This document shows, one piece after another, positions 838-30,371 of a DNA stretch of 32,906 nt. Source of the stretch: a virus; the IMG/VR virus record IMGVR_UViG_3300031673_000294, positions 1 to 32,906 of that record; one strand, written 5' to 3'. The position numbers and the translations under genes were made by a program. The stretch's first letter is position 1. Every line of letters begins with the position of its first letter. The notes under the pieces are model-generated. The model had not been told where the DNA came from. It was given only the letters and a program-made list of their open reading frames with translations, and did no database searches.

Positions 838-1767
838 TTAATTCCTCCACCTTCTAAATCTATCGCCCGCCTGTTTTATGCGGGCGATCCAGGTTGAATT
901 GGCTGCGTTTTCCTGTAGTATGGCCGCTGCCTGGACATATTTCTCGGTTGTTGCGACTGTCTCATGGCCAAGCCGGATCTGGACCTCCTTGATCGACACA
1001 CCATCCTCAATCAGTTTGACCGCCGTGGTATGTCGCCATAGGTGCGGATTAACATGTTCAATCCTTAGTTTTGTCCCATAACGGGCCAGGAGTTTATAAA
1101 GACCGTTCGGGGTTATTCGTTTAAAATGTTTCCCAATGATCGCGGGGAATGCAATCTGTGAGCCCTGGCCATTTCTCTTTTCCATATACCGGCCCCATGC
1201 CCATTTTGTCGGGCCTTTTTGTTCAACAGTGACCCGGCGTTCTTTCCTGCCCTTCCCTTTCACGTTTATAAACATCCTTCGGCTTGCGCCCCATCCATCC
1301 TCGAAGATATCCTCAATATCCAAGTTACATAATTCCTCGGCCCTGAGCCCATGAAGCAGAAACAGCATAATCACATAATCCCTGCAACCACGTACGGTCT
1401 TAAGGTCCGGCGCCCTAAGCATTGCCGAAAGATCATCTTCCGGGATGATCTTTGGAATCCGCTTCTCCCTTTTGACCGGCATTAAATACTTAAGTGGGTT
1501 TTCATTAAGCTGTAATCCGCCATGACCGCTAATGGCCAGAAAGTTATAAAAATTCTTGAGCGTAAAAAACACGCCCTCCATTGTCGTCCGGCTGTTCCCA
1601 TTGGAATAAAGATCCAGCAGGTATGTCTGGATATGCTCCTGTTTAATACCTGCCGGATCTGGAAAATGTTTTAGGTATCTTTCAACCCGCATACCATAAC
1701 ACCGGATTGTCTTATCTGAATATTGCTTGGCCAAAAGCCAGTTTTTATATTGCGTTAATATTTCCAA
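838..1767 (-). CDS. Tyrosine recombinase, XerC/D-like (second recombinase)
   Basis: A 309-residue site-specific recombinase. Residues 1-100 form a SAM-like core-binding domain (starts MEILTQYKNWLLAKQYSDKT). The catalytic domain carries every expected residue: R142 in HGLRAEEL, K172 in KGKGRKERR, H242 and R245 in HLWRH, H268 in LGH, and nucleophile Y277 in TEKYVQ. It overlaps the end of the replisome-organizer gene by 23 bp, so it belongs to the early replication operon. It is clearly different from the attP-linked integrase at 7543-8589. Possible roles are multimer resolution, a second recombination site or excision. I see no IntI-type insertion before the HxxR box, so it is unlikely to be an integron integrase. 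Family call firm, role inferred. Confidence 0.9.
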   Translation of the reverse strand: MEILTQYKNWLLAKQYSDKTIRCYGMRVERYLKHFPDPAGIKQEHIQTYLLDLYSNGNSRTTMEGVFFTLKNFYNFLAISGHGGLQLNENPLKYLMPVKREKRIPKIIPEDDLSAMLRAPDLKTVRGCRDYVIMLFLLHGLRAEELCNLDIEDIFEDGWGASRRMFINVKGKGRKERRVTVEQKGPTKWAWGRYMEKRNGQGSQIAFPAIIGKHFKRITPNGLYKLLARYGTKLRIEHVNPHLWRHTTAVKLIEDGVSIKEVQIRLGHETVATTEKYVQAAAILQENAANSTWIARIKQAGDRFRRWRN

Positions 1768-3686: not shown

Positions 3687-3713
3687 TTAGCGCCTTTGCG
3701 CCTTTGCGTGAGG
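3687..3713. repeat. Dispersed genomic repeat (CGCCTTTGCG type)
   Basis: The tract contains tandem CGCCTTTGCG units followed by TGAGG. Sequences of this type (GCGCAAAGGCGCAAAG on the other strand) are scattered between genes in many environmental bacterial genomes, so its presence here suggests acquisition from a host chromosome. It lies between the 78-aa and 79-aa genes. An 18-codon frame on the minus strand (3676-3732, starting in an ATGA overlap) runs through it but is not called as a gene. Confidence 0.5.
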
Positions 3714-3728: not shown

Positions 3729-3965
3729 TCATCCCAACCCCGCCCTCTCAATAATCCAACTGGGGATTGCCGCTTCCATGACGGGTTCGCCGTTTTCTTG
3801 ATATTTATCCAACCTCAATAAATATTTTGGAACCCACAGATCCTTTTCCCCGTTATCGGTTTTCAATAATAGATATATCCCCTCTTTAGTCTCCCTAATT
3901 ATTTCTATAACCCTGAAAAAGTCCCTGGGTTCATATAGGTTGCATGGGGGTTTGCCTTTTTTCAT
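3729..3965 (-). CDS. Hypothetical early protein, 78 aa; start abuts an integron core site
   Basis: A 78-residue protein (begins MKKGKPPCNLYEPRDFFRVI) with alternating strands (IYLLLKTDNGEKDLWVPKYLL) and no recognised family. Its ATG lies only 8 nt after the GTTAGGC core site that closes the upstream attC, with only a poor ribosome site between. That spacing is typical of the first gene of an integron cassette, so this gene may once have been a cassette too. No attC follows it, however, so this is conjecture. Coding probability is moderate. Confidence 0.55.
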   Translation of the reverse strand: MKKGKPPCNLYEPRDFFRVIEIIRETKEGIYLLLKTDNGEKDLWVPKYLLRLDKYQENGEPVMEAAIPSWIIERAGLG

Positions 3966-3973
3966 TTTTTAGT

Positions 3974-4030
3974 GCCTAACGTAGAAGTCAGGCGCCAGCG
4001 TAGCTGGTCGGCTGCACTGACTGGTTAGCT
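3974..4030 (-). other. attC: Integron attC recombination site
   Basis: Read on the minus strand, the 57 bp divide exactly into R'' AGCTAAC, a 5-nt spacer CAGTC, L'' AGTGCAG, a 20-nt terminal region with a CCAGC-TAC-GCTGG hairpin, L' CTGACT, a 5-nt spacer TCTAC, and R' GTTAGGC. L'' and L' pair with a single unpaired G, the extra-helical base that guides integron integrases. R' fits the consensus GTTRRRY. Length, equal spacers and the unpaired base are all canonical. R'' is the complement of the cassette's own 5' core GTTAGCT rather than of R', as expected when the last six bases of R' belong to the neighbour. Confidence 0.88.
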
Positions 4031-4226
4031 GAATTCTAAAATATCATCAAAGTCAGGATGTAATAACGTGCCAGTTTCCCTACCTTTAAAAGCAATTATT
4101 TTTGGGAAAGGAAAGTCCTTAAAAAAACAGAAATTACTAAAAACAGGATCAAACCATTCATCTGTTAATTTAATTTGTCCACTATCCCATTCTTCAACTG
4201 TAATCATTTTATTTCCTTTCAGCTAA
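3980..4226 (-). mobile_element. Integron gene cassette, 247 bp
   Basis: Boundaries follow from the integron cut between G and TT of the core: the cassette starts TTAGCTGAAAGG at 4226 and ends ..TCTACG at 3980. Circularising it creates GTTAGCT, the perfect complement of its R'' box. It holds one frame of 60 codons, whose start lies 19 nt inside the left edge and whose stop lies in R'', the standard compact cassette design. It is co-directional with the phage early operon and so probably expressed from the phage promoter. No integron integrase or attI is visible. It was presumably inserted by a host or superintegron enzyme at a G|TT target. Confidence 0.85.
4025..4207 (-). CDS. Cassette-encoded protein, 60 aa, unknown
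   Basis: The only gene of the integron cassette. It begins MITVEEWDSGQIKLTDEWFD, is acidic and aromatic-rich (FSNFCFFKDFPFP), and ends DFDDILEFS. A clear ribosome site (GAAAGGAAA) precedes the ATG. The TAA stop lies inside the attC R'' box. I do not recognise a domain. There is no signal peptide or transmembrane helix. Most known environmental cassette genes are likewise of unknown function; many characterised ones act in defence, toxin-antitoxin or metabolic modulation, but nothing here supports one of these. Confidence 0.7.
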   Translation of the reverse strand: MITVEEWDSGQIKLTDEWFDPVFSNFCFFKDFPFPKIIAFKGRETGTLLHPDFDDILEFS

Positions 4227-4276
4227 CCATTAAATGTTATGAGTTTATTCAATGATATCAGCTAAGCGGGCGTCCT

Positions 4277-4414
4277 TTATAGCCCCTGAATCTCTTTATC
4301 AACCCCGGAAAACAAATCATAAATCACATATACAACGGCAATGAATGCTCCGGTAACAAGTACCGGTCCAAACCAAAACCAGTTCTTATTGATAAGCATA
4401 ATTACTGTTTCCAT
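4277..4414 (-). CDS. Small single-pass membrane protein, 45 aa
   Basis: A 45-residue frame beginning METVIMLINKNWFWFGPVLV with one hydrophobic helix (about residues 12-33, FWFGPVLVTGAFIAVVYVIY) and a charged tail (DLFSGVDKEIQGL). GGGAGA lies 5-8 nt upstream of the ATG. It overlaps the end of the upstream regulator gene by 29 bp. The size and topology fit small phage membrane peptides such as host-modifying or superinfection proteins; a specific role cannot be given. It is the last gene before the integron cassette. Confidence 0.6.
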   Translation of the reverse strand: METVIMLINKNWFWFGPVLVTGAFIAVVYVIYDLFSGVDKEIQGL

Positions 4415-4871
4415 AATCTTCTCCCTTTATGGTTTCCCAAATTCGCAATTTTAGGTCTTTTGGTATTCTGCTTTCAGGGCATACTCCCCTCTCAACATTC
4501 GACAGGTAGCTGGAGTTTGTCCCGACAAGGTGGGCAAATTTTATTTGAGTAATATTCTTCTGCTTTCTAAAAAATTTAATAGCGTTCATAAGGCGGGACT
4601 TATCTTGATATACTTCACGCTCACCATTGACAAACCGCCTGACCTTCTCAGGATTGAGGTTAAATAACTCACAAACCCATAAGAAGGACGCTGGTGTGTT
4701 TCTTTCGCTCTCAAACCATTCAAGGGCATTCTTGATGGTTATTTCATCGCTTCTGCTACACCTCGGTGTCCTCGTAGCATCCTGAACCGCCTGCCAAAGG
4801 ACCATGAGCCAGAGAAATCTATCAGGGCAATGGGGTTTATATCCTGTTATCTGTACCGGGAAGTGCTTCAT
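4386..4871 (-). CDS. XRE-family DNA-binding protein with an extra N-terminal domain
   Basis: A 161-residue protein. Residues 25-85 (RFLWLMVLWQAVQDATRTPR, then LEWFESERNTPASFLWVCEL, then FNLNPEKVRR) match a domain common in phage early proteins of unknown role. Residues 95-140 form a Cro/CI-type helix-turn-helix (FFRKQKNITQIKFAHLVGTN, then SSYLSNVERG). It starts 1 nt after the upstream stop, suggesting coupled translation. It probably regulates transcription in the lytic programme. The partner operators are not identified. Confidence 0.7.
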   Translation of the reverse strand: MKHFPVQITGYKPHCPDRFLWLMVLWQAVQDATRTPRCSRSDEITIKNALEWFESERNTPASFLWVCELFNLNPEKVRRFVNGEREVYQDKSRLMNAIKFFRKQKNITQIKFAHLVGTNSSYLSNVERGVCPESRIPKDLKLRIWETIKGEDYGNSNYAYQ

Positions 4872-6316: not shown

Positions 6317-6396
6317 TGTTTTGTTTAACTCATTGGGGCTATAAATTTATTGTATGAGTATTGATTAATACGTTTTATTGATTGAGTGTGGTTCAT

Positions 6397-6416
6397 TATA
6401 CATATTATGATGTATA
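6397..6416. promoter_or_regulatory. Palindrome near the CI-like start (TATACAT N6 ATGTATA)
   Basis: Seven-base arms TATACAT and ATGTATA are separated by ATTATG, just upstream of the preferred repressor start at 6430. The right arm is part of ATGATGTATAT, which recurs at 6430-6440. The position suits an autoregulatory site or a different operator from the CAATATATTG pair. An in-frame upstream ATG at 6382 would place it within the coding region instead. Confidence 0.4.
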
Positions 6417-6429
6417 TGTCAAGAAAAAA

Positions 6430-7542: not shown

Positions 7543-8589
7543 ATGGCAGTAACTCAACTTAAAGATGGGCGGTGGATTTGTTATTACCGGGTGCCTTGTG
7601 GGGATCCACGCAAGAGCCGTATCAAAAAAGAATATTTCGGTCGGGGTCCAGAGGCCGAGAAAGCGGCCCGAAAACGTCATGATGAATTGGGCCTAAAAAA
7701 AAGACGCCCTGCCCGCGGTTCACGTGGTCCAAAATTTTCAGCATTGGCCTATTCATACGCTGATAACAAAAACTTCTCCCGAAACTCAAAAGACCTTTTA
7801 TCCACCCGCCTAAGAAGTAGCATCCTTCCTCATCTTGGAAACTTTTCAGGCATCCAGATCAAGTTTCAGGACCTTGATAATTATGTCAAAAAAAGACGGC
7901 GGGACCGTGTCAAGGATTCAACCATCTCAAGGGAATTGACAGACATCAAAGCGATCCTTAACTGGAGCGTTGCAAGACAACTGCTTGAATTCAACCCTGT
8001 CCGGGATTACAAAAAACCCGCGGAAAACAACGCCCTTATAATCCCGCCCAACACCGAAGAAATATCAAAGATATTGAAACATGCCAGCCCGCACCTTGTC
8101 AGGGCAATAATGCTTTCCTATTACCTTGGCCTTCGGCCCGGGGCCGTTGAACTTCTGCGGATCACATGGTCGGAAATTTTGTGGGAATCACAGTCCATCT
8201 TGATCAAATCAGCAGACAAAGGCGGCCCAAAAAACCGCCTCGTACCAATCCATGATGATTTCCTTCCCATATTGACAAAATGGCACGCTGAGGACAAGAA
8301 GAGAGGATATCTAATACACTTCCATGGCCAACCCATTAAAAGCATCAAAAAGGCATGGAGAGGAGCTTTGAGGAGGGCAAAAATTAAGAGGCGCTTACGA
8401 CCCTATGACCTGAGACATTGGTTTATCACAAAGGCCCTTGAGGAAGGGGCGGACCTTAAGGCACTTTCTGAGATCGTGGGGTCCCGCCCGGAAACCATCA
8501 TGAAACATTATCAGCATGTCACATCAGAGGTCCACCGCAAAACCGTAGCTAAGATCCCTGGGCTCCCACCTATTTTTGAAAAGAAATAA
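7543..8589 (+). CDS. int: Phage integrase (tyrosine recombinase), attP-linked
   Basis: A 348-residue integrase: arm-type DNA-binding N-terminal domain (1-60, VTQLKDGRWICYYRVPCGDP), core-binding domain (65-160), catalytic domain with R198 (LGLRPGAVELL), K226, R291 (YDLRHWF) and nucleophile Y323 (MKHYQHV). Two positions deviate: Y288 replaces the first His of HxxR, and S314 replaces the His of LGH; both substitutions occur in active phage integrases. It ends 351 bp before the tRNA-Val fragment at 8940 and so most likely recombines that site. Convergent with the late operon. The ribosome site is weak. Confidence 0.9.
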   Translation: MAVTQLKDGRWICYYRVPCGDPRKSRIKKEYFGRGPEAEKAARKRHDELGLKKRRPARGSRGPKFSALAYSYADNKNFSRNSKDLLSTRLRSSILPHLGNFSGIQIKFQDLDNYVKKRRRDRVKDSTISRELTDIKAILNWSVARQLLEFNPVRDYKKPAENNALIIPPNTEEISKILKHASPHLVRAIMLSYYLGLRPGAVELLRITWSEILWESQSILIKSADKGGPKNRLVPIHDDFLPILTKWHAEDKKRGYLIHFHGQPIKSIKKAWRGALRRAKIKRRLRPYDLRHWFITKALEEGADLKALSEIVGSRPETIMKHYQHVTSEVHRKTVAKIPGLPPIFEKK

Positions 8590-14863: not shown

Positions 14864-17800
14864 CAGGTTAGTCTCCTTGATCCGACGCCTTCGTCTTCTG
14901 CACGAACCCGGATCTCGTCGGCCCTTTCGTCAATGTGGGTGTTAAGCTGATCATTGCCGATATAGACACTATGTTTTGTCGGTTTGGAGAGGATAGCCCT
15001 TAACAGGCTGTTCTGTTCCCGTAATTCTGCCAATTCTGCGCTCCGATTGCTGCCGCCGTCGCTTATTTCCGGCATAATCAATGATGGAGAAGACAGCATA
15101 TCACTCGTATTTATTGACCCATGCAAAGGAGTTATTTTCTCAGTTCCATGCAGCCACGCCCAGTAACCGCTTTCCGGCCCTGAAGCAATACCTCCATGCT
15201 GGAAACCGCCTTCTGGAATAACCTGATTATAATAAACATCAATGATTTTATCATTAAACTGATAACTATTAAGATTATCGAATGCATCTCTACCGGATGC
15301 CGCCATACTGTCCATAGTTTCATTCATTGTCTCACTTACATTGGACGCCGCCGCCTCCGCTGCTGAAACATAACTATTATAATATTCTGTTATCCAAACA
15401 CTACCGGCAGCAGACATCTCTTCTGTGCCACTCACATAAGCCGTTACCCAATCTTGTTGTTGTGCAGTCAAGTCAGACGTGCCTGCCGCAATATTAGCGA
15501 AGGCGTCGAGCATCATTTGTTCCATAGTCATTATATCATTTTCAGCATTCACTCGCCATTCGCCGGAGGCATCTGAGAGATATTCATAGTTACCCTGTAA
15601 GCTTTCAAATGCCGCATTCGCTTGATCTGTCATACCTTCATAATATGTAGTCATAGTGCCAAGCATATTCATGGCCCATTCTTGCTCGGCCTCACTTAAC
15701 TGATCCCAGCTTCCTATCTGTGCATCATAAAAATCCTGGGCAGCCTGTGACCATCCCTCTGTCCAGCCTTCTATACCGCCAAGTGATGCCATAACCCATT
15801 CTTGCTCGGCCTGAGTTAGGTCTGCATAACCTTCGTTAGCCATGTCAAAAAATGTCTTCGCGAGATCGGTGGTAGCGGTTGCCTCATATGCCTCAAGCAT
15901 TGCCATGGTATAGGTTTTCTCTGCTTCGGTGAATGTTGCCATTGCATCATCTACTGCGGAGGCAAATCTTTCCTCTGCTTCTTCAAGATCATAGTAAAAT
16001 TCATTCTCACTTGCCCACCAATCCTCTGCCCAACTAAACCCAAACTCTTGCTCTGACATTTCACCAAAAGACTTCATAGTCGTATCAATAGCGCTTTGGA
16101 GGTTTTGTGCACCAGTTACCCCTGCCTGCCAAAAGGATTCATTAAATGGAGAAGATGCATCTCCCGCTATGTATTCAAACCATGTCTGGTATCTTTCCTG
16201 AACATCCTCGACTGACTCACCATGCAATGCAGCGAGTTCTGTCCAGGCGTCCCAGCTAAGTGCATTTTCATCCATAGCAACTATTGTAGCCAGGAATAAT
16301 TCATAACCTTCCTCTTCCCCTAAACCAGTGGCAAAAGACTGTGCGCCTTGAAAAATCGTACCGGCCTGAGCAGATGCATCTTGAGCATAAAATGTATCAT
16401 ACCAATGCTGTATACGTTCATATTTATCCTCTAAATCAGATGCCCATTGTTCGCTCATTAGATAGGCAGCAGCGGCATATATTGCGCCTCCTGCAACACC
16501 GGCATAAGCCCCGCTCATTGTTAATCCGCCTGTTGACGCTCCGGTATAACCAAATCCGGCAGATCCTCCTCCCATTGCTGCGGAAGTACCTGAAGCAGTA
16601 CCTGCGGCAGCACCTGCGGCCGGGGCAGCCTCATATGCTGGCGCTGCTTCGTAAGCCCATTCTGCTGGAATAACATCACTATATGCAGCAGAGCCAGAAT
16701 AAGCCGCCTCATATGCTGGTGCTGGGTCATACGTGTAATTATAAATATCGGGTACTGCAGCCCCTGCTGTCGTTCCTCCTCCTGATGTTAAAAGTCCACC
16801 TTCTCCTGTCAATCCTACTGCCTCCCCAAGTGAGCTTAAAAGCCCGCCCGACCCAGTTAGGCCAATGGCATCAGTTACATATTCTACAGCAGAACTCAAA
16901 AGAGAGCTTGTGCTACTTGTTCCAAACACCAAGTCTGACAATTCCATCAAGGCCCACTCAACGAGTAAATCAGCTATAAAATCGCAAAAGGCAGCAAGCA
17001 TGCTATCCAGCATGTCATCCCAGAGATCGCTCAGGCTATCGTATTCGCCTTGGAAGTAATCTGAGATATTTGATTTGAAATCTGATTTTATTTGGTCGAA
17101 TGCATCGTATGAGGCATTTTCAATATACTTGGCCCACTCATCCCAATCCTTTTTATTGTCTTCAAGCCAGGTCTCAAATCCTTTAAAAAATGCCTCGTAA
17201 ACATTAGTGACCTTTCCGGTATCCTTATCAAAATAATCTTCGGTAACTCCCAATATCTCAATGCACATCTTTTTCTGTTCTTTTTCTGTTGCATTGATGT
17301 ATTTATCCTGTTCGGTGAGAAGATCGCTCAAGAGCTTTGTATCTTCTGAAAGGATTTCAGCATAAAGCTTTTTCATGAACGCCAGATATTCGTTATGCGC
17401 TGCCTCTGCTTTAATGACACCTGCTTCCCAATCAACGGCGTATTGTTCGGCTGTTCCTTTGGTGGAGACCTTGATTTCCTCATTTACTGTCTTGATTGTT
17501 TCGCCCGCCTCTGTCTGCTTGATTTCAACTTCGCTTATCTTGTCTCTCCAGCCTTTTAACGTCTCAACAGTATCCTTGTATGACTGGTCAGTATCCAGGG
17601 CATCTTTGATGACATTCTCCGTGGCTGCCCTGCTAACCTCGGCCATGACATTGATCTCGTTCTGCATTTCTTTGAAGGGGTTAGATCCGATGACCCCTAT
17701 CTCTACCAGCCAGTCAAGGAGCATGTTGAAGGGCTCGAAAAGCAGCATCAGGCCGTCGTAAAGCAGTTTCACGGAATCAATTATTAATTCAATAGCAACT

Positions 17801-18798
17801 GTGCCTGCGATCTTGACCCCGTTCCATGCGTTTGATAACACATTTAATATTTCTATAAGGAGTATTACAGCATCAAAAACATAGAGAATCCCGTCTTTTA
17901 CAAGATTCATTAAATATTCTCTATTATTTTTTATTGACGTTCCCCATTCTTCAAATTGTTTTTCAGCCATTTTAACAAGGTCAATGAAAAAGTCACTTTT
18001 AGTTATTACAAAACCAAGTTCTTCTTTCATATCACCTAAAGCATTTTTTGCTGATTTTACCGCTCCCCCAAAAGTATCTTTTGCTGCAGTAGCAGCACCA
18101 CCAAATTGTGATTCAAGCTCTTTAAGTATAATATTTTGAGCTCCCATTACATCACCAGCTTCCCATAATTCCTTAATCATATCTTTTTGTGTATCAGTGA
18201 ATTGTACTCCTGCCCTGGTCATAGCACTAAGGTTTGCAATAGGGTCATTCATAGCTTTACCAATCATTACCATAGAACTTTTTAAATCCTGTTGCATAAC
18301 TTCAGACATGTCTAAGGCCGCCTGGGTAGCACGCTCAAAACCTTCTCCTCGAATTTGTTTAAAGGTCGCAAGAATAGACATTCCAGCAATTATGACTTCA
18401 TCACCAGTAGTAGTTGTTTTCTGGAAGGCGGCCGCCATTTTGTATAATTCATCGGCACTATAACCCGCCGATTGACCTGTAGCCTTGATTACCGCCTCCA
18501 GGCGTTTCTCCGCTGCTTCCTGGGCATTAGCTGCTGATACTACCTCGTTCGTTACTTTCGTAAAGGCATAGGTCACCGCGGTGGCCATTGCAGCGGCGGC
18601 AATGCCAACGGCCTTGAAATTTATGCTGCTGAGTGATTTGTTCCAGGTGTTGCTTAGCTTTGTGGATGTTTCCATGGACGCGTTGGAATGGCCTTTAATC
18701 TTGTTAAAGGCGCTCTCAACGCTCTTATCAAACTTGTTGATTGTGGCAGTGCCTTTGTCATCAACATCAAGGGTTATGGTTACTTTATTTTTTGCCAT
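14863..18798 (-). CDS. Tape measure protein, 1311 aa
   Basis: The largest gene. The N-terminus (KNKVTITLDVDDKGTATINK then FDKSVESAFNKIKGHSN) is typical of tape measures; long helices follow, then a hydrophobic block (about 295-365), Ala/Tyr-rich low complexity (about 690-740), and about five near-40-residue repeats around 940-1150 with the phrase LTQAEQEWVM. The C-terminus shows FQHGGIASGPESGYWAWLHG, common in this family. The protein sets tail length; the known ratio of about 0.15 nm per residue predicts a tail near 200 nm. Starts within the end of the chaperone frame (14-bp overlap). Confidence 0.92.
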   Translation of the reverse strand: MAKNKVTITLDVDDKGTATINKFDKSVESAFNKIKGHSNASMETSTKLSNTWNKSLSSINFKAVGIAAAAMATAVTYAFTKVTNEVVSAANAQEAAEKRLEAVIKATGQSAGYSADELYKMAAAFQKTTTTGDEVIIAGMSILATFKQIRGEGFERATQAALDMSEVMQQDLKSSMVMIGKAMNDPIANLSAMTRAGVQFTDTQKDMIKELWEAGDVMGAQNIILKELESQFGGAATAAKDTFGGAVKSAKNALGDMKEELGFVITKSDFFIDLVKMAEKQFEEWGTSIKNNREYLMNLVKDGILYVFDAVILLIEILNVLSNAWNGVKIAGTVAIELIIDSVKLLYDGLMLLFEPFNMLLDWLVEIGVIGSNPFKEMQNEINVMAEVSRAATENVIKDALDTDQSYKDTVETLKGWRDKISEVEIKQTEAGETIKTVNEEIKVSTKGTAEQYAVDWEAGVIKAEAAHNEYLAFMKKLYAEILSEDTKLLSDLLTEQDKYINATEKEQKKMCIEILGVTEDYFDKDTGKVTNVYEAFFKGFETWLEDNKKDWDEWAKYIENASYDAFDQIKSDFKSNISDYFQGEYDSLSDLWDDMLDSMLAAFCDFIADLLVEWALMELSDLVFGTSSTSSLLSSAVEYVTDAIGLTGSGGLLSSLGEAVGLTGEGGLLTSGGGTTAGAAVPDIYNYTYDPAPAYEAAYSGSAAYSDVIPAEWAYEAAPAYEAAPAAGAAAGTASGTSAAMGGGSAGFGYTGASTGGLTMSGAYAGVAGGAIYAAAAYLMSEQWASDLEDKYERIQHWYDTFYAQDASAQAGTIFQGAQSFATGLGEEEGYELFLATIVAMDENALSWDAWTELAALHGESVEDVQERYQTWFEYIAGDASSPFNESFWQAGVTGAQNLQSAIDTTMKSFGEMSEQEFGFSWAEDWWASENEFYYDLEEAEERFASAVDDAMATFTEAEKTYTMAMLEAYEATATTDLAKTFFDMANEGYADLTQAEQEWVMASLGGIEGWTEGWSQAAQDFYDAQIGSWDQLSEAEQEWAMNMLGTMTTYYEGMTDQANAAFESLQGNYEYLSDASGEWRVNAENDIMTMEQMMLDAFANIAAGTSDLTAQQQDWVTAYVSGTEEMSAAGSVWITEYYNSYVSAAEAAASNVSETMNETMDSMAASGRDAFDNLNSYQFNDKIIDVYYNQVIPEGGFQHGGIASGPESGYWAWLHGTEKITPLHGSINTSDMLSSPSLIMPEISDGGSNRSAELAELREQNSLLRAILSKPTKHSVYIGNDQLNTHIDERADEIRVRAEDEGVGSRRLT

Positions 18799-19536
18799 GC
18801 CTTAATACCACCTTGCGGGGCCCTGGCCCCGGCGTTCTTTTTGGTGTTGTCCTTTGGCCAGGGGCCATGGGGTTATCCAAGCTCTGCTTGGCTGAGAACA
18901 TCTGGTGGATCATGATCAATTTTGTGATCGTATCCCAGGCCTGCCTTTTAGTTTGTTTTAGACCAAAAATTTCAAAGATCAGCGGAAGAGCATTAAAGTC
19001 ATAGACAAATTGAGTCCTTAATAATGAGTATAGGTCCCATATCTCCTTATCTTCAGAAGACAAGACGGGAAGCTTACAGTTTTCGCAGTCCGGTTCAATG
19101 CCGTCATTGTCGTAGTTCTCTTCACACTGAGCACAATTTAGCCTGGGGTAATCGATGCGACACTGGGCGTAGGCTTCGAGATTCGAGTTTTTTTTCCTGT
19201 TGTGATGTTGTCGGCATCGCACGCCTCAATGATCTGCATCTTGACTGAACCAGGGAGCTTGATTTTATTCTTCTTTTCGCAGGGCACATCCTCGCCTGTT
19301 GTTGGTGATTTGATATGCCCCCAGCCTGTTACCATGTAATCAAGCAGGTCGTCATTTACGGAACGATCATCTACCTCCTTGATCCATTCTCCTGTCCGAA
19401 AGTTCTTTTTCTTTTTGGTATGCTTCTTCTCAATTTCATTATAGTTCGCTGAATCGAATCTTCTCAGTTCAAAATAACTGTCGCCAACATCAAGCCTAAA
19501 GCTTTCTTCATCGTCGATTATTTCTATGAAGGGCAT
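18785..19536 (-). CDS. Tail assembly chaperone, long frameshifted form (GT-like)
   Basis: A -1 slip at 19189-19195 joins residues 1-116 of the short chaperone to 134 residues of the overlapping frame, giving about 250 residues. The extension (starts NSNLEAYAQCRIDYPRLNCA) has CxxC-x12-CxxC, probably a zinc site, then IWDLYSLLRTQFVYDFNALP and LIMIHQMF, like DUF1799-type chaperone domains. In lambda, GT binds the tape measure and recruits tube subunits. The gene lies just before the tape measure, as in other siphophages. Confidence 0.8.
19138..19536 (-). CDS. Tail assembly chaperone, short form (G-like), 132 aa
   Basis: A 132-residue acidic-to-basic protein (MPFIEIIDDEESFRLDVGDS; SYFELRRFDSANYNEIEKKH) with good AAGGAGAA ribosome site, located between tail tube and tape measure. 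It is the product of normal termination; the minor frameshifted form shares its first 116 residues. Functions as the more abundant chaperone during tail assembly, absent from the virion, by analogy with lambda G. Confidence 0.8.
   Translation of the reverse strand: MPFIEIIDDEESFRLDVGDSYFELRRFDSANYNEIEKKHTKKKKNFRTGEWIKEVDDRSVNDDLLDYMVTGWGHIKSPTTGEDVPCEKKNKIKLPGSVKMQIIEACDADNITTGKKTRISKPTPSVASITPG
19189..19195 (-). other. -1 programmed frameshift slippery site A_AAA_AAA
   Basis: On the minus strand GGA AAA AAA ACT in the chaperone frame contains the heptamer A_AAA_AAA, inside a run of eight A. Slipping back one base continues as AAC TCG AAT into the downstream frame, which is otherwise open through this point. 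The same geometry is conserved in lambda G-GT and many siphophages. Confidence 0.85.
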
Positions 19537-19575
19537 TGCGGTTCTCCTTATGGGTTATTGGGTTCGTTGGGTTCT

Positions 19576-19603
19576 GGGGTCAAATCTTCGTTGATTTGAC
19601 CCC
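19576..19603 (-). other. Intergenic hairpin after the tail-tube gene
   Basis: A perfect 11-bp stem GGGGTCAAATC / GATTTGACCCC with a 6-nt loop, 6 nt past the tail-tube stop and before the chaperone gene. There is no U-tract, so it looks like an mRNA 3'-end stabiliser, processing site or partial attenuator rather than a full terminator. It shares the core GGGTCAAATCTTCGT with the hairpin after the capsid gene. Confidence 0.7.
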
Positions 19604-19609
19604 ATTCCT

Positions 19610-20659
19610 TTATGCCAACGGGTCTGTGGTTCGTTTGTTCGTTACGTCAATCTGAAACGGCTTTGTTATTCCGGTCATGCCCAAGGGTGCTGAATCTGTC
19701 CCCAAAAGCCTAAACGTAAGGCTGTTTGGGATCTTGCCCGGGCCAGCCGCCGGAGTATCGACATCCGTGACCTTGAGGTTCGGCATGGTGATTTTAAAAT
19801 CGTAATAATATGTGTCCTCAATCAGGGTTCCTTTCAGATAGATCTCGGCCTTCTTTTCCGTAAATGCCTCCCAGTCTGCAAAAAAGTCATGGTTTGCATC
19901 ATCGTATTTCGGGAAAGTGAGCTTTAAGGTTGCCTCAGGGAAGCCTGTCCCGATCGGCTCGTCAATCCCTTCTGCCCCTACCACAATGTCACCCTCAAGG
20001 GGCCTGTTGAATGTCAGCTCAAAGCTTGCCGGATAAACCTTGTCGCCATCTGCAAGGGCAATTGCGGACTTGTCATTGATTTTGACTGTCGTGTCGCTGT
20101 TCATGATTATCCTATTTGACTTGTCAGGATAGGTCACGTTTGCCATAGTCGCAGCTGTGTTTATTACAGAATCCGTCACAAGTTTATCAGGGAGTGTGTT
20201 CAGGGTGATTTTCATTGGGGCATACATCTCTCCTGATAACGTAAATCCATGCAGCTTAATGCTCGGAAATTCATGGACAACATCGGACTTTTTGAGCATT
20301 GCAAGCGTGGCAAACAGACCATAGATCTCGTTTGCCATGACATAGCTATTTATGTATGCAGCGGTTGCCCCCTGTATCGTAGGCACGCCGGCCGTTCCCA
20401 TAATCAGCGCCAGGGCAACATCAAGCCCCTCATAACGCATGTATGCCTCCAGGTTTCCGGCCACATTCCTTTTGCCCTTGTCGGTCTGGTGATGGAAATA
20501 TGCACCCAGACTGTCATCTGCCAAGTCCTCTATTGTCTGCTTTATGGACTCGCTCAAGATCAAGACGCCGTCGGTGGCCCCGCAAGCAAGCGCAGTGCCC
20601 CAGGCGGCCGTCTTTTTGAGGCCAATTATTAGTTCTCTTCCTGTTATCGGATCTCCCAT
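19610..20659 (-). CDS. Major tail tube protein, 349 aa
   Basis: A 349-residue protein (MGDPITGRELIIGLKKTAAW) with the order typical of siphophage tube proteins: N-terminal arm, ALALIMGTAGVPTIQGATAA, LHGFTLSGEMYAPMKITLNT, then a beta-rich second half with SFELTFNRPLEGDIVV. The family assembles hexameric rings stacked along the tape measure. Excellent ribosome site (AAAGGAGGTAAC). Upstream of the chaperones as expected. Confidence 0.82.
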   Translation of the reverse strand: MGDPITGRELIIGLKKTAAWGTALACGATDGVLILSESIKQTIEDLADDSLGAYFHHQTDKGKRNVAGNLEAYMRYEGLDVALALIMGTAGVPTIQGATAAYINSYVMANEIYGLFATLAMLKKSDVVHEFPSIKLHGFTLSGEMYAPMKITLNTLPDKLVTDSVINTAATMANVTYPDKSNRIIMNSDTTVKINDKSAIALADGDKVYPASFELTFNRPLEGDIVVGAEGIDEPIGTGFPEATLKLTFPKYDDANHDFFADWEAFTEKKAEIYLKGTLIEDTYYYDFKITMPNLKVTDVDTPAAGPGKIPNSLTFRLLGTDSAPLGMTGITKPFQIDVTNKRTTDPLA

Positions 20660-20685
20660 GATGTGTTACCTCCTTTTTGATCGGT

Positions 20686-20952
20686 TTAAGTCTTTATCTT
20701 TTGTCTTTTATTCTCTGTGTTCTCTGCCTGCCCCGTAGCTCCGTGAGATGGTACTGGGGTGAGAGACTCCTTCGCTTTTAAGGTCTTTGGTTCTTCCTTC
20801 TCTGCCTTCTTCAAAAGACCGGATTTTAGATATTTCTCCACCTCTTTGTCTGACAATCCTTTATCCTTGGCGGTGAAGGGCTCGCCTGTGACAAGCTCCC
20901 CTAAAACAGGGTGGTATGTCTTTGGCCCTGGGCCTGTGTATATGACTTTCAT
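20686..20952 (-). CDS. Small tail-module protein, 88 aa
   Basis: Begins MKVIYTGPGPKTYHPVLGEL and contains TGEPFTAKDKGLSDKEVEKY, a small fold similar in layout to the HI1506/FluMu gp35-type proteins found with phage head or tail genes. The C-terminal 25 residues are low complexity, and the DNA there contains TTCTCTGTGTTCTCTG (20711-20726), which looks like part of a dispersed genomic repeat. AAAGGAGG lies upstream of the ATG. Function unknown. Confidence 0.6.
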   Translation of the reverse strand: MKVIYTGPGPKTYHPVLGELVTGEPFTAKDKGLSDKEVEKYLKSGLLKKAEKEEPKTLKAKESLTPVPSHGATGQAENTENKRQKIKT

Positions 20953-20972
20953 GATGTGCCTCCTTTTTTTAG

Positions 20973-21006
20973 GTTCAGGGGTTCAAGGTTCACAGTTCAA
21001 AGTTAA
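20973..21006. repeat. GTTCA heptad repeat
   Basis: GTTCA starts at 20973, 20981, 20988 and 20995, with a GTTAA at 21002: a 7-8-bp periodic tract between the tail-terminator-type gene and the 88-aa gene. Similar GTTCAAGGTTCAA-type tracts are scattered between genes in some Desulfobacterota-like genomes. It forms the leader of the 88-aa gene. No function is apparent. Confidence 0.6.
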
Positions 21007-21017
21007 AGACAAACCCC

Positions 21018-21473
21018 TTATGGTCGTTCCTCTAATTTCTGATATTCATAGGTTATGATTTTGCGCTGCAATATCATGTCCTCATAACCGATTGTCTCGC
21101 TTTCTGTTTCCTCAACCGGAAACGCCAACTCCATGCCGGTTATTGACAATAAGTTGTCATTTAAGGAGTTGTGGATATTGTCTCTTATTTCCAGCACGCC
21201 ATATATACGCGGCATTGTCTGGCCTATTATTGGGATCTCCCCGGCCTTCAAAAGCTGGTAGATTATGATATTTACCTGATAATGGACCTCCCAGTTTTCG
21301 GATGTTTCAACAAGATGGTCCACCGGACCGTCCTTAAGGCCAAGGGCCGGGAAGCCTGCGCTTATGGGTATCATATCAGGGTCCGGCGTTATAAAGATGT
21401 CGGTGTCGCTTATATAGCTCAAACTGGCATCGCCCTGAAGCTGAACCTTGATTGCTTCTATAAGTTCTTTCAT
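21018..21473 (-). CDS. Tail terminator / completion-like protein, 151 aa
   Basis: A 151-residue protein (MKELIEAIKVQLQGDASLSY) with the N-terminal helix and alternating strands of tail-terminator-type proteins (WEVHYQVNIIIYQLLKAGEI). It overlaps the upstream gene by ATGA and precedes the tail tube, the usual position of lambda gpU-type terminators that cap the tail. Assignment from context and general pattern. Confidence 0.6.
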   Translation of the reverse strand: MKELIEAIKVQLQGDASLSYISDTDIFITPDPDMIPISAGFPALGLKDGPVDHLVETSENWEVHYQVNIIIYQLLKAGEIPIIGQTMPRIYGVLEIRDNIHNSLNDNLLSITGMELAFPVEETESETIGYEDMILQRKIITYEYQKLEERP

Positions 21474-22036
21474 TCGATATATTCTCCGGCCATTTTGCGC
21501 AAAAACAATGTCTTGAAATCCTTCAACATGTCGTTATAATATTTCTGATAAAAGGCCCCCATGATATCGCGGGACGGGACCTTGACTGATTTTGTTTCTT
21601 TCCTGAGATGTATCCCGCATGAATGAAGCATCTCCCTTTTTGCTTTTGTGATCCTGATTCGATATCCATCAACGCTCTTTCTTGCTATTCTTGCCTGCCA
21701 TGCCGTGCCTCCGATTCCACGAAAACCAAGCGTTAAGGTTTTTGTGGAGTACTGAACATGATAAGTTATCCCCTTATGCAGCGGTGATAACGGTTTGTCG
21801 GGATCTGTAGGGCCTCTGCTATACTTTGGATCGCCTGGGGTATTTCGATATAACACCTTGGGTGCAAGGCCTAATCTTCCGCCTTTAAGTTCTGTTTGTG
21901 CGATTTGAGCATAATTCCAACCGACCTTTGAAAGGGCGATAGTCTGCGCCTTATTAAGGTTTTTCTTCTGGTCGTCAGCCCACTTCTGGATGCCTTTTCC
22001 GGCCTTTGCGATCCCTTTGAATTTGATTGCGAGCAT
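21470..22036 (-). CDS. Minor tail / head-tail joining protein (gpZ / HK97 gp10-like), 188 aa
   Basis: A basic 188-residue protein starting MLAIKFKGIAKAGKGIQKWA, with helices and strands matching the HK97-gp10 / gpZ-like pattern (IALSKVGWNYAQIAQTELKG; SPLHKGITYHVQYSTKTLTL). Such proteins complete the tail at the head-tail junction. It lies between the attachment protein and the tail terminator, the standard order. Confidence 0.65.
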   Translation of the reverse strand: MLAIKFKGIAKAGKGIQKWADDQKKNLNKAQTIALSKVGWNYAQIAQTELKGGRLGLAPKVLYRNTPGDPKYSRGPTDPDKPLSPLHKGITYHVQYSTKTLTLGFRGIGGTAWQARIARKSVDGYRIRITKAKREMLHSCGIHLRKETKSVKVPSRDIMGAFYQKYYNDMLKDFKTLFLRKMAGEYIE

Positions 22037-22050
22037 CTTTTATTTTGCCT

Positions 22051-22389
22051 TTAAAGTTGCCTTCTTTCGGAACGTGTCAGGCGCAAGCGCCATATTCCCG
22101 TTGCCTTTGGGCCTGCCAGGTTTTCTATTAAATACCAGGTCTCTCCATCGATCGTGAACGTATCGCCCTGGGCGTTTGGGCTTGCGACCTCGCTCTCCTG
22201 AACTTCTATTATCATCTCGTCTGCCGCCGGTTGCGGGTCCTGTAACGACTCGTCGCTTGCATTAATGATGATTTTTACGGTCTCCCCAAGGATTGATCCT
22301 AAAGGTATATAAGTGACGCTTTTTGCAAACTCATCCGTATTGAAAAAGATGCTATCAAGATCGCTTTCCATTTGGGTTTTCAGGGTCAT
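22051..22389 (-). CDS. Head-tail attachment protein (lambda FII-like), 112 aa
   Basis: A 112-residue protein (MTLKTQMESDLDSIFFNTDE; TYIPLGSILGETVKIIINAS) with ending TWYLIENLAGPKATGIWRLR LTR, the hallmark of phage head-tail joining proteins of the FII/attachment family, which form the hexameric connection to the tail. ATGA overlap with the 95-aa gene upstream. Confidence 0.72.
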   Translation of the reverse strand: MTLKTQMESDLDSIFFNTDEFAKSVTYIPLGSILGETVKIIINASDESLQDPQPAADEMIIEVQESEVASPNAQGDTFTIDGETWYLIENLAGPKATGIWRLRLTRSERRQL

Positions 22390-22673
22390 CTGTCCACCAT
22401 CACAATATCGATAGATCGATTTTCCTTTCTGGTCTGATTAGTAATTATCTCATTGACAATACGATAGGTCTCCCCGACAGTTCCGCCGGATAGCCATATC
22501 GTTGTCGTGGTGTCAGTTTTGCTATCGCTGTCCTTTGTTAATCCTGTGGGGACTGTCCATTCGCTTGTGCTTATGGTCTCCCCGTCTTCGAGCCAAGGAC
22601 TCCCTTCTTTCTTCCAGTTAAACCCATAATCCAAGACCGCATCAGGATCTTTTGGGATTTCCTTTATTGCCAC
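22386..22673 (-). CDS. Phage fibre-tail-adaptor-like protein, 95 aa
   Basis: A 95-residue protein with KDPDAVLDYGFNWK, GETISTSEWTVPTGL, TTTTIWLSGGTVGETYRIVN and RKENRSIDIVMVD, the well-conserved blocks of a small Ig-like phage family often annotated Gp77-like adaptor. Members lie in head-tail junction clusters and may decorate the connector or head. Family recognition fair, role tentative. Confidence 0.7.
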   Translation of the reverse strand: MAIKEIPKDPDAVLDYGFNWKKEGSPWLEDGETISTSEWTVPTGLTKDSDSKTDTTTTIWLSGGTVGETYRIVNEIITNQTRKENRSIDIVMVDR

Positions 22674-22685
22674 TTTATCCTCTTA

Positions 22686-23252
22686 TCAGCTCGAAGTTGC
22701 GCTACAAGTTACGGTGACTTCCAATGTGTCATTATCATCCAGTACTTTATCGCCTGCACTGAAAGCGCCTCCGCCATAGAGCACTCCAGCCGAGCCGCCT
22801 TTTGTGTTTTCTGTACAGATAAAGGCCCCGCCAATCGTTGTACTGTTAGCGCTGATCGTAAAGGTCGCCTCGTTTCCAACATTATCAATGGCCTTAGCTG
22901 CAGCGGCATTCCACACAAGGGTAATCCTGTTTGCCTCATCATAGGCGGTCACTTCTGTCCAGCCGGCATGAGTTGTCATATCATCGCCTACAGCAAACGA
23001 CGGTGTCGTTCCAGTCAGGCCTAAATAATGGAGGGCCGTATAGGCAGCGCCCTTGAAAAACTCTTGCAATTCAAGGGTCAAACCTTCGTCGACAACTAAG
23101 TTCTCAATGACATCTTCCCATTTGAGGTTGCCATGCTTGTCAAAGCATCGGAATTTATAAACGTTCTTGAACTTCTTCTGTAGCTCAATGACCTTTGCCT
23201 TTGCCTTTGCTCCGGCCCCAAAATTTACGCCCATTTCTCTTTCGAAATCCAT
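22686..23252 (-). CDS. Phage structural protein, 188 aa
   Basis: An N-terminal segment (FRCFDKHGNLKWEDVIENLV, then VDEGLTLELQEFF) is a motif found in many phage proteins from head or head-tail clusters, followed by a beta-rich C-terminal domain (HYLGLTGTTPSFAVGDDMTT; FICTENTKGGSAGVLYGGGA). Probably a virion component. The ribosome site AAGGAGGG is strong. The exact function of this group is unclear to me. Confidence 0.6.
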   Translation of the reverse strand: MDFEREMGVNFGAGAKAKAKVIELQKKFKNVYKFRCFDKHGNLKWEDVIENLVVDEGLTLELQEFFKGAAYTALHYLGLTGTTPSFAVGDDMTTHAGWTEVTAYDEANRITLVWNAAAAKAIDNVGNEATFTISANSTTIGGAFICTENTKGGSAGVLYGGGAFSAGDKVLDDNDTLEVTVTCSATSS

Positions 23253-23262
23253 TTTACCCTCC

Positions 23263-25041
23263 TTACCATCCGGACTTATTTGCGTTTATAATTCGATCTT
23301 CATGACCTACAGCGATCACCCGTTCTTCCCTACCCACATCAACTACCCGGCTTTCATGGTCTACGGTGATTATCCTTACCTCCCCTGATACGACCATCTC
23401 CCTTAGCTCATGTTCAACTGTGACTAACCTGCTCTCTGGGACAGAAATTACAAAAGTAGTTTCACCCTGCAGGACCAATAATGTATCTTTCGTGATATCA
23501 AAATCTGCCTTTGCGGCTGCCTTTCCCGCAATGCTCAGGGCCGAATCAAACTGCAAGTCAACATCAACCCTATGTTTGGCCTGGCCTTCAATGTCTGCTG
23601 AAAGCCCCTTGTTAAGCTGAATCGCCGCAGAGGCTATCTGCTTGGCAACATTGTCTATGGTCATGTTTTTGGTTACTGCGATGCTGACCTGAGTAACCCC
23701 TGCGAGCTTCTGGCTGGTGAGCGTAATAGTGAAATTGCCCGTTGTGCTGATTGCTGCAGATGCCTGAGCAAGGGCCTGAAGAACAGTTGCTATATCGTGG
23801 GTCAGGCCTAAAGCTGCATTGGCCTGGGCCTTGCCGATCAGTGAAGCAATATGATTCTTGGAAATAGACAGGTCGCTTGCGGCAAGGGCCTTGCCGATGA
23901 GTGAGGCCAGTTGATTCTTTGTAATACCCACATCTCCTAAGGAGGATGCCTTGCCTGTTTCTTCAATGGTTTGATCTTTGTTTATGCTTATGTTGGCCAG
24001 TGCCGCTGCCTTGCCTGCCACAGACGCAACAAGGCTTTTGGTGATAGCCAATGCAGATATTATGATATTTTTGGCGGCCTGAATTATTATATGGTTTTTG
24101 GATATGGATATGTCGGCTGAAGCGGCCGCCTTCCCAACAGCGGCAACAGCCTGATCTTTTATTGTAGTTAGAGGGGCCTTGGCCGCTGCCTTGCCTACAA
24201 AGGCAGAGGAATGATCGGAGACCACAGATACACTGCCCGAAATAATTGCCTTCCTTACAAAAGAAGCAATGTAATTTTTGGCCAAGTCAAGGTTGGCCTT
24301 TGTGGCTGCCAGGCCGCCAAAGGAGGCTGTTTGATCTTTTGTGATTGAAACAGAGGACTTTGTAGTTGCCTTTCCAACCAGAGATAGGCCCTGGTTTTTG
24401 GTCATGCCAAGACCAGATGCCCCGGAGGCCTTGCCTGCCATAGAGGCAACCTTGTTTTTATTGATAGATAAGGCCCCGCCTGAAGATGCCTTGCCACTGA
24501 ATGTGACGGCCTTATCCTTGTTCGTGGATATGTCTACTCCTATAATTGCTCCGGCCGATAAGGTCGTGATTGTCGTCTGGAGTATTGCAGAGCCTGAAAA
24601 ATCAATAACTACAAGTTGCAACTCGTACTCTTGCCCATCTAATGCCCCTGAACCAAAGCCCAATGCCCACTGAATCTCACCATAAGTGCCGTTGCCGATA
24701 TTCAATAAATAAGCTAAATTATCGCCTTCGTTTTCTACACTGCCATTATCTATAGGAGATAGACAACCTGCTGTGTTAGCTCCTAAAGCTAAAGCATCGG
24801 TTAATACTGTTCCTATTCCCCAACGAATCTCAGTATCAGCGCCGACATCGACAAAAGTTCCGCCAGCCCTGCGCCATTGAAGTTTACAGTCAGAATCGGG
24901 ATTGGTAGAATTCGATAAAACCCATGTGGCTAAGATAAATTCATTGGCTTTATTCCAATCCACAATATCGGCATTGCAGGCCGCCTGCCAAACCCTACTG
25001 GCATCAGCTATTCTGGAATCTGTTTGAGCAAAAAGACCCAT
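23263..25041 (-). CDS. Capsid-adjacent repeat protein (possible head fibre), 592 aa
   Basis: Three parts. Residues 1-169 form a beta-rich domain (ACNADIVDWNKANEFILATW; SDCKLQWRRAGGTFVDVGAD). Residues 170-531 hold about eighteen repeats of 20 residues, consensus xLSITKNQxASLxGKAxAxA; the first thirteen are in exact register. Residues 536-589 are six 9-residue repeats ExRxIxVxH. It directly follows the major capsid gene, so a head-attached fibre or decoration is likely. The 20-residue period could form one turn of a beta-solenoid. The terminal ExR-type repeat is seen at the end of other phage head proteins. Confidence 0.7.
   Translation of the reverse strand: MGLFAQTDSRIADASRVWQAACNADIVDWNKANEFILATWVLSNSTNPDSDCKLQWRRAGGTFVDVGADTEIRWGIGTVLTDALALGANTAGCLSPIDNGSVENEGDNLAYLLNIGNGTYGEIQWALGFGSGALDGQEYELQLVVIDFSGSAILQTTITTLSAGAIIGVDISTNKDKAVTFSGKASSGGALSINKNKVASMAGKASGASGLGMTKNQGLSLVGKATTKSSVSITKDQTASFGGLAATKANLDLAKNYIASFVRKAIISGSVSVVSDHSSAFVGKAAAKAPLTTIKDQAVAAVGKAAASADISISKNHIIIQAAKNIIISALAITKSLVASVAGKAAALANISINKDQTIEETGKASSLGDVGITKNQLASLIGKALAASDLSISKNHIASLIGKAQANAALGLTHDIATVLQALAQASAAISTTGNFTITLTSQKLAGVTQVSIAVTKNMTIDNVAKQIASAAIQLNKGLSADIEGQAKHRVDVDLQFDSALSIAGKAAAKADFDITKDTLLVLQGETTFVISVPESRLVTVEHELREMVVSGEVRIITVDHESRVVDVGREERVIAVGHEDRIINANKSGW
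23275..23436 (-). repeat. Six 27-bp coding repeats (9-aa ExRxIxVxH)
   Basis: Units ESRLVTVEH, ELREMVVSG, EVRIITVDH, ESRVVDVGR, EERVIAVGH and EDRIINANK follow each other without gaps at the C-terminus of the 592-residue protein (residues 536-589). Confidence 0.85.
23449..24534 (-). repeat. 60-bp coding repeat array (20-aa units)
   Basis: About eighteen units of 60 bp encode 20-residue repeats. Units at residues 190-209, 210-229, 370-389 and 390-409 are the best examples (ALSINKNKVASMAGKASGAS; DLSISKNHIASLIGKAQANA). Register holds exactly from 170 to about 430 and then shifts by a few residues. DNA copies are diverged, so this is an old array maintained for structure. Confidence 0.85.
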
Positions 25042-25067
25042 TTAGGTTATCCTTTATGGTCATCGCA

Positions 25068-25094
25068 GGGTCAAATCTTCGTAAGATTCGACCC
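25068..25094 (-). other. Intergenic hairpin after the capsid gene
   Basis: A 12-bp stem GGGTCAAATCTT / AAGATTCGACCC with one mismatch and a 3-nt loop, between the capsid stop and the repeat-protein start. The shared GGGTCAAATCTTCGT core relates it to the hairpin after the tail-tube gene. No U-tract; likely mRNA processing or stabilising element. Confidence 0.65.
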
Positions 25095-25114
25095 CACTTT
25101 GTAACCCTTTGTTT

Positions 25115-26074
25115 TTAGCTGAAGGTTGAATAACTGGCCATTTGCCAGTAACCATAACCCACGTTACGCATAGCCTTGATGCCGTAATGGTGCACGTCAT
25201 CGTTGAACTCAAGCTCGCTGCCTTCGGCAATGGCACTCATTTTGATGGGTTCCTCTTCCTGGCGAATAAGGGCCTTGACATCGCTGTCGGTCCTGAAAAC
25301 CATCATGTTGGTTGTGAGTGCTGAAAATCTCGGGTTGAATTCGGCTCTAAGCTTGAAACCATCAAGCGTTCCAAGGACATTGGTGAATGCTGCGCCTGCG
25401 CCATCGGTTATTACCTGTGAGCCAAGGGCTGCCATAAGGGGTGCCCAAAGCTGAGGGGTGCCGACCATGATCAGGAATTCCCTTGCGTCTTCATTAAGAG
25501 GCTCACCCTGATCATCTTTATAGGCCATCATATAACCGATTACTCCAAGGACAGCTTCAACCATTTCGGCTGCTGTCGGTGCCGTGGTTGTCGTAACATC
25601 GAGCTTTGGCACCTGGGTCGCGGTTAACAGGTTTAATAATGTCCCTGAATCGCCTTCGCTATGGTCGGAGTCAAAGAAATACTGGCCGTCATAGCAAACA
25701 CCTGAAGTTCCATTGATTAACAAGGTGCTTAACAAAGATGCCCAGTGCGCCAGCGCTCTCCTGGCCTGCTCTCCCACCCTGAGCATGATCTGGCCGGTCT
25801 TATCACGCCTGAGATCATCTACCTGGATCTCAAGAGTAGATTCGTATTTCTTATTGAAAATGGTGATTCCATTCTCACGGAATCCCTTGGCCTGCCTACC
25901 GCCGACCCATTCCCGCATCTGCGGAACCATGCCGAGCCATTTATAGGTCTCTGATTCCTGGTTTGAGTCAAAAAGCATTGAAATCTGGTTAATCCAGCTC
26001 ATGCCAGTTAGTTGACTGAGACGGTGATAAAACTCACCGATTATCGCCCTGCTTCCTAATCCTGCTGCTCCCAT
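25115..26074 (-). CDS. Major capsid protein, Mu gpT-like, 319 aa
   Basis: A 319-residue protein with the blocks of Mu gpT-type major head subunits: YKWLGMVPQMREWVGGRQAK, GITIFNKKYESTLEIQVDDL, ARRALAHWASLLSTLLINGT, DGQYFFDSDHSEGDSGT and FLIMVGTPQLWAPLMAALGS. HK97-fold shell protein. AGGAGGTACAAC before the ATG fits high expression. Flanked by decoration protein upstream and hairpins on both sides. Confidence 0.9.
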   Translation of the reverse strand: MGAAGLGSRAIIGEFYHRLSQLTGMSWINQISMLFDSNQESETYKWLGMVPQMREWVGGRQAKGFRENGITIFNKKYESTLEIQVDDLRRDKTGQIMLRVGEQARRALAHWASLLSTLLINGTSGVCYDGQYFFDSDHSEGDSGTLLNLLTATQVPKLDVTTTTAPTAAEMVEAVLGVIGYMMAYKDDQGEPLNEDAREFLIMVGTPQLWAPLMAALGSQVITDGAGAAFTNVLGTLDGFKLRAEFNPRFSALTTNMMVFRTDSDVKALIRQEEEPIKMSAIAEGSELEFNDDVHHYGIKAMRNVGYGYWQMASYSTFS

Positions 26075-26136
26075 GATGTTGTACCTCCTATTTCAATTTA
26101 ATATTAATGATTTCATCTTTCTGCCCACCCCCTCTA

Positions 26137-26158
26137 TCCCCTCCCGCGAGGGAAGGGA
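26137..26158 (-). other. Intergenic hairpin before the capsid gene
   Basis: A 9-bp stem with one mismatch (TCCCCTCCC / GGGAAGGGA) and a GCGA loop, which is a stable GNRA-type tetraloop on the plus strand (TCGC on the transcript). It lies between the decoration and capsid genes. No U-tract. Possible processing or stabiliser element, or a copy of a genomic repeat. Confidence 0.5.
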
Positions 26159-26183
26159 AACGAAGAGCGGAATGAATTGTTTG

Positions 26184-26945: not shown

Positions 26946-27196
26946 TTGATTTTACCTCCTTGTTTTGTCTTTTTTTGTTTCTTTGGTTTTGTTGATTTAG
27001 TTGATTCAATTGAATCTATCGGTTCAGCCGATTTTTTCCCTTCAACTATCTCGACTTCAAGCATAGGCTCATTTTGAAACCTGAGTATTTCGTCTGGCGC
27101 AAACCTGCTGTCGGGATATTCAGTCGTAGTTGCAGGATGCGGCATCCCACACCGGCGAAAACCTTCTCTTTGGCTTGTTATCCGGATTATCGACAT
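26942..27196 (-). CDS. FluMu gp35 / HI1506-like small head-module protein
   Basis: The product shows IRITSQREGFRRCGMPHPAT then EYPDSRFAPDEILRFQNEPM and LEVEIVE, the signature of the small Mu-like prophage protein typified by HI1506, found beside gpT capsid genes. A Lys/Ser-rich tail follows (SIESTKSTKPKKQKKTKQGG). The second ATG (27196) is preferred because it gives better spacing to GGAGGG than the one at 27199. Exact function of the family is not known to me. Confidence 0.72.
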   Translation of the reverse strand: MSIIRITSQREGFRRCGMPHPATTTEYPDSRFAPDEILRFQNEPMLEVEIVEGKKSAEPIDSIESTKSTKPKKQKKTKQGGKIK

Positions 27197-27241
27197 CATT
27201 CCCTCCTTTGCCCTACAGTATGTTATGGTTATAGGGTCCTG

Positions 27242-30099: not shown

Positions 30100-30128
30100 G
30101 GCTCACATTTTGGCTCCTTTCTAATAAA

Positions 30129-30360: not shown

Positions 30361-30371
30361 GACAAAATTAT

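Follow-up and report, generated by a model that had tools for sequence, protein, structure and literature searches.

Probable integron gene cassette with an attC site in the early operon of a temperate-type phage

Results

We analyzed a window of 32,906 bases, which is virus record IMGVR_UViG_3300031673_000294. The window encodes a GpA terminase, a portal, tail genes, a CII-type regulator, a replication initiator, and two tyrosine recombinases, and we therefore assign it to a temperate-type tailed phage or prophage. A short unit with the anatomy of an integron gene cassette, one ORF followed by an attC site, lies on the minus strand of the early operon (Table 1). Read along that strand, the unit passes from the 5' core GTTAGCT through GAAAGGAAATAAA to the ATG of a 60-aa ORF and on to AGCTAAC (R''); this single ORF fills the cassette and ends within R'', so that start and stop codons lie near the boundaries, as the first-pass annotation had stated. 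That annotation gave the cassette as 3974-4226. The cassette itself stands, but the mobile unit is corrected here to 4226-3980, because TTAGGC (3979-3974) is part of the downstream flank. The 5' core (4227-4221) is the exact complement of the cassette's own R'' (4030-4024), again as first read; GTTAGCT occurs four times in the window, counting both strands, and two of these four are the 5' core and R'' of this unit.

Table 1. Positions of the cassette, its parts, and related features in the window
Feature	Position	Strand	Basis or remark
Mobile cassette, 247 bp, bounded by two G^TT crossover points	3980..4226	-	Sequence
5' core site GTTAGCT, exact complement of R''	4221..4227	-	Sequence
Ribosome-binding-site-like AAGGAA, within cassette	4213..4218	-	Sequence
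Cassette ORF, 60 aa, no known family	4025..4207	-	ATG 4207; TAA 4027-4025 inside R''
attC site, 57 nt	3974..4030	-	Model R1, 29.4 bits, E 6.8e-5; folds
R'' AGCTAAC, contains ORF stop codon	4024..4030	-	Sequence
L'' AGTGCAGC, one extrahelical G	4011..4018	-	Model alignment
Hairpin arm, 18 nt	3993..4010	-	Sequence
L' CCTGACT	3986..3992	-	Model alignment
R' GTTAGGC; TTAGGC part of downstream flank	3974..3980	-	Sequence
Next ORF downstream of cassette, 78 aa	3729..3965	-	Start codon 9 nt past R'
Upstream flanking ORF, 45 aa, membrane type	4277..4414	-	Sequence
Consensus promoter TTGACA-16-TATAAT, head of early operon	6395..6422	-	Ahead of operon holding cassette
XerC-like tyrosine recombinase, early operon, not IntI	838..1767	-	Profile scores and sequence; homologue beside L053 cassette array
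Phage integrase, not IntI	7543..8589	+	Profile scores and sequence

The attC site contains paired R''/R' and L''/L' arms and an extrahelical base. Its subdivision in the first-pass annotation is borne out, since the parts, with CAGTC between R'' and L'' and TCTAC between L' and R', add up to the full length (7+5+8+18+7+5+7 = 57). Six of the seven L-arm pairs are formed and the remaining one is a C.C mismatch, while the extrahelical base is a top-strand G, which is C in most attC sites. R' fits GTTRRRY. R'' departs from RYYYAAC at position 2 (G), as does the same R'' in the sister phage contig L054, and the 5' core is likewise one position off the RYYYAAC/GTTRRRY consensus. The L mismatch and off-type extrahelical base could lower recombination activity; a plasmid cassette site (L031 7172-7231) has the same kind of extrahelical G and L mismatch.

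Rfam at gathering scores returned nothing, and we therefore built our own covariance model, R1. It was trained on 19 aligned attC sites, with R and L arms modeled and the window site left out, from class 1 integron plasmids (L017-L031), Tetrasphaera phage TJE1 (L023), and Shewanella phage M16-3 (L024). The window site passed this check, of the kind that the first-pass annotation had proposed, with a full-length match of 29.4 bits (E 6.8e-5 in 33 kb), and the next-best match in the window reached 8.9 bits. In a joint search, undoubted attC sites scored about 26 to 66 bits, a range that includes the window site. A refined model, R2, found no match at E up to 1 in 207 kb from 19 other phage loci. 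Scores from R1 are the independent ones, because R2 training included some sister-phage sites. The bottom strand of attC is the one used by integron integrases, and the window site showed the expected strand bias in folding (-13.6 kcal/mol, z -2.7, for the bottom strand compared to -9.9 kcal/mol, z -0.9, for the top). BLAST searches of phages and plasmids with the attC site or the entire cassette yielded chance matches only.

A simple pairing-and-energy scanner had given the top rank in the window to a terminator-like hairpin (30126-30176) and the next to the attC site, and was too unspecific, so that the covariance model was used instead. That hairpin, on the minus strand after ORF 30372-30629, is strong (-21 kcal/mol).

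The flanks of the unit read ...AATGG^TTAGCT... and ...CTACG^TTAGGCAC..., which is compatible with insertion at a G^TT site. Likewise, the termini G^TTAGCT and G^TTAGGC are compatible with insertion at an attG site; no relative with the same flanks was found. In viral contigs, neither flanking protein (3729-3965 and 4386-4871) has a relative, so that no empty site is observable for the window cassette. The covariance model placed no attC in the window after the 78-aa ORF. Promoter calling found none within the cassette itself. Since the cassette gene brings its own ribosome site and is oriented with the operon, the early promoter at 6422-6395 would transcribe it. The first-pass annotation had the cassette expressed from a phage early promoter; the early operon and the consensus promoter are present, and we infer the expression from them. 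Near the edge of the cassette region, a repeat, GCGCCTTTGCGCCTTTGCG, occurs at 3688-3712 and similarly at 4778-4795 in the sister phage L055.

Neither recombinase in the window is an integron integrase. Their scores were 70 and 47 bits compared to an NCBIfam integron-integrase cut-off of 265, and both lack the IntI-specific insertion. A phage-encoded integron integrase was rejected on these grounds. The record thus contains no IntI and no complete integron (intI adjoining attI). Nor is the window a CALIN (at least two attC sites without intI), since it has one attC site; L053 and L054, two sister contigs described below, are CALINs by this definition.

The 60-aa product matched no family above cut-off in Pfam, PHROGs, or NCBIfam and had no relative in scans of genomes, plasmids, and phage records; no copy of the cassette, in an integron or otherwise, was found in those genomes, plasmids, or phage records. 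GC content is 31% for the ORF compared to 45% for the window. An AlphaFold model of the ORF, built from two sequences, had a mean pLDDT of 62, too weak for a structure search. The only relative found was L002 6001-6195 (IMG/VR contig 3300009528_000005), which is 67% identical in amino acids and 80% in DNA over the gene itself, with few differing positions across the final ~60 bases. This homologue is an ordinary phage-operon gene with no adjoining attC. We considered whether ACACAAC after it is an eroded R'', and the resemblance is within chance. At another locus of the same phage, cassette-type sites occur at L062 558-620 (23.7 bits) and 779-862 (18.4 bits), with a third, recognized by eye, near 285-405. 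The same 60-aa gene is therefore found in cassette form in the window phage and as a plain gene in another phage, which itself seemingly carries cassettes. Across L062 280-1060, the cassette-type sites are on the minus strand and the ORFs begin GTTAGGAGG...ATG.

We gathered sister phages by portal and terminase searches. With near-duplicates collapsed, about 10 distinct phages (terminase at least 38% or portal at least 69% identical) were obtained, in a lineage picked because the window had an attC, and 5 of them, including the window, carry attC; this number is a lower bound, because the contigs are fragments. The near-twin of the window, L056, is 99.99% identical over 15304-32906, and the cassette region is outside the match. 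Past the window's end, L056 contains direct repeats, GGGTTTCA...CTGGCTCGCA, ~45 bp apart (18140-18270).

The largest array is in L053, where R1 or R2 located about six attC sites (40-101, 462-586, 796-857, 940-1065, 1229-1279, and 1468-1515), the two weakest of which score 21 bits and are less certain. The array ends ~0.5 kb upstream of a homologue of the window recombinase at 838-1767. These attC-type sites and their small ORFs (L053 1-1530) are directly upstream of MazG-like and XerC-like genes, and in some L053 cassettes long inverted repeats link the 5' core and R'', e.g., GTTAGGACGTATATTGGG with CCCAATATACGCCTAAC.

A second locus is the terminase-portal interval, where the same models placed two attC sites in L054 and its twin L074 and one in L055. 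L054 shares the start AGCTAACCAGTC with the window site, and its cassette start falls within the 3' end of a RadC-like gene. The RadC-like ORF (L054 13803-14414) stops 3 codons into the cassette start GTTAGCTGG, as if G^TT insertion had occurred there. L077 has one attC after a 178-aa ORF. Among phages related to the window only by their replication initiator, attC sites were found in L015 (685-753) and, with low scores, in L016/L061, and none in the other twelve of that group. The L015 site (33.3 bits) is oriented against the strand of the adjoining genes, and the sites in L061 8560-9030 (L016 13900-14640) lie among small ORFs and appear by eye to form an array of three.

Two pairs of sister phages differ at cassette regions. 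L054 6592-12777 and L060 1-6186 match at 99.8% identity over 6.2 kb, after which they part sharply ahead of the cassettes. L055 and L058 are 96% identical on one side, and L058 is without the small cassette gene and the left attC half, keeping the right half, CTGATTAGGACGTTATGC. Because of these differences, we conclude that cassette-bearing segments come and go in the lineage; neither pair represents clean IntI-type excision. We considered whether L058 had undergone scarless IntI-type excision compared with L055 and rejected this, since the break is inside attC and leaves a half site. The abrupt divergence of L054 and L060 falls within a helix-turn-helix gene that adjoins the cassette region. 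In L064, the early operon is partly syntenic (regulators, CII, replication initiator, and recombinase), and no attC was found.

Discussion

The sequences show the anatomy of a cassette, the fold of its attC, its phage context, and attC sites at two loci in sister phages. We propose that the unit is probably an integron gene cassette, one ORF with its attC, which a host integrase acting in trans placed within the early operon of a temperate-type phage; a host IntI is invoked because neither recombinase in the window is an integron integrase. The host enzyme would have excised the cassette as a circle, in which the ORF end, attC, and GTTAGCTGAAAGG are joined, and the attC bottom strand would then have recombined with phage or prophage DNA at a G^TT site. 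Insertion would give ...AATGG^(cassette)^TTAGGCAC..., and the site without the cassette would read ...AATGGTTAGGCACTAAAAAATG.... The inserted gene would be transcribed from the early promoter. Its attC would remain open to any host IntI, such that the phage could deliver the cassette to the integron of a new host or gain others, and the lineage would be a cassette carrier without a dedicated integrase of its own. Since no copy was found in an integron and no empty site was seen, we infer movement of the window cassette between hosts only indirectly.

A chance hairpin, either a terminator or a regulatory structure after a small phage gene, is scarcely credible as an account of the site. The site is intergenic, where hairpins are common, and other terminator-like hairpins of the window also score in the crude scan. 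However, it matches an independently trained attC model over its full length, the complement of R'' is found at the right place as the 5' core, there is no T run, and sister phages have attC sites. A better case can be made for a fossil, that is, one ancient insertion whose gene has become fixed in the phage and whose attC, a relic, has lost the ability to recombine. The single attC, its L-arm mismatch, and its off-type extrahelical base are consistent with this idea, as are the plain phage gene in L002 and the half attC retained in L058, which implies that decay happens in the lineage. Nevertheless, we consider a fossil unlikely, because complementarity between R'' and the 5' core remains exact, the fold keeps its strand bias, a plasmid cassette (L031) shares the same kind of off-type features, and sites in sister phages are intact.

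It could also be argued that the XerC-like recombinase (838-1767) moves the cassettes, which would make the lineage an independent capture system. The enzyme is encoded in the same operon as the window cassette, and its homologue is just downstream of the L053 array. Yet its profile score is far below the integron-integrase cut-off and the IntI-specific insertion is missing from it; in L064 the recombinase occurs without attC, and the cassettes of L054 and L055 are located elsewhere. We therefore regard this mechanism as very improbable, and insertion by a host integrase in trans is preferred.

The first-pass annotation, which had integron cassettes normally living in chromosomes or plasmids, overstated the novelty of this locus. 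Qi et al. (2023; PMC9892861) reported integron cassettes and CALINs in phages and showed that IntI1 recombines phage attC sites in assays. Among 10,705 phage genomes they counted 17 CALINs, each required to have two or more attC sites, along with three complete integrons and one In0. The phage CALINs, such as those of Tetrasphaera phage TJE1 and Polaribacter phage P12002L (PMC9892861), likewise combine attC sites and small ORFs without an integron integrase, and the TJE1 sites match the same covariance model as the window site. In contrast to those clusters of at least two sites, the window attC is solitary and is situated within a temperate-type phage's early operon, and cassettes recur in several members of the lineage, at two loci. 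Complete integrons in Vibrio anguillarum phages and Shewanella phage M16-3 (PMC9892861) also place cassettes on temperate phages, whereas the window has neither intI nor attI.

Cassettes inserted outside integrons at attG sites have been described by Loot et al. (2024), as cited in PMC12901181 and PMC11023631. In those accounts, as in the window, a single cassette bounded by G^TT lies in non-integron DNA; by comparison, the window target is phage DNA whose pre-insertion sequence is not observable, and the downstream core GTTAGGC may either be of the attG type or have belonged to a neighbor cassette since lost. Cassettes of chromosomal and class 1 integrons have the same R''-L''-L'-R' layout and an ORF filling the cassette, but the window cassette is not arrayed beside intI, and its extrahelical base and one R'' base are off-type. 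Phage-borne cassettes have thus been known as a kind since 2023; this locus adds a lone cassette within an early operon, and its lineage adds repeated carriage at two loci.

A broader reading, which we advance tentatively as quite possible, is that this environmental lineage of temperate-type phages is a standing carrier of cassettes, which would enter repeatedly at the early operon and the terminase-portal interval through host integrases in trans, be transcribed as phage genes, and be exchanged with host integrons. Such carriage bears on how cassettes move between bacteria with sedentary integrons. Several members of the lineage have cassettes with different genes in different places, which makes a phage route directly testable. 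These observations suggest that cassettes are a source of small accessory genes for phages and that this virus lineage may shuttle cassettes between bacteria. If the lineage is a standing carrier, phages would be a regular route of cassette transfer, and cassettes would be a source of phage accessory genes.
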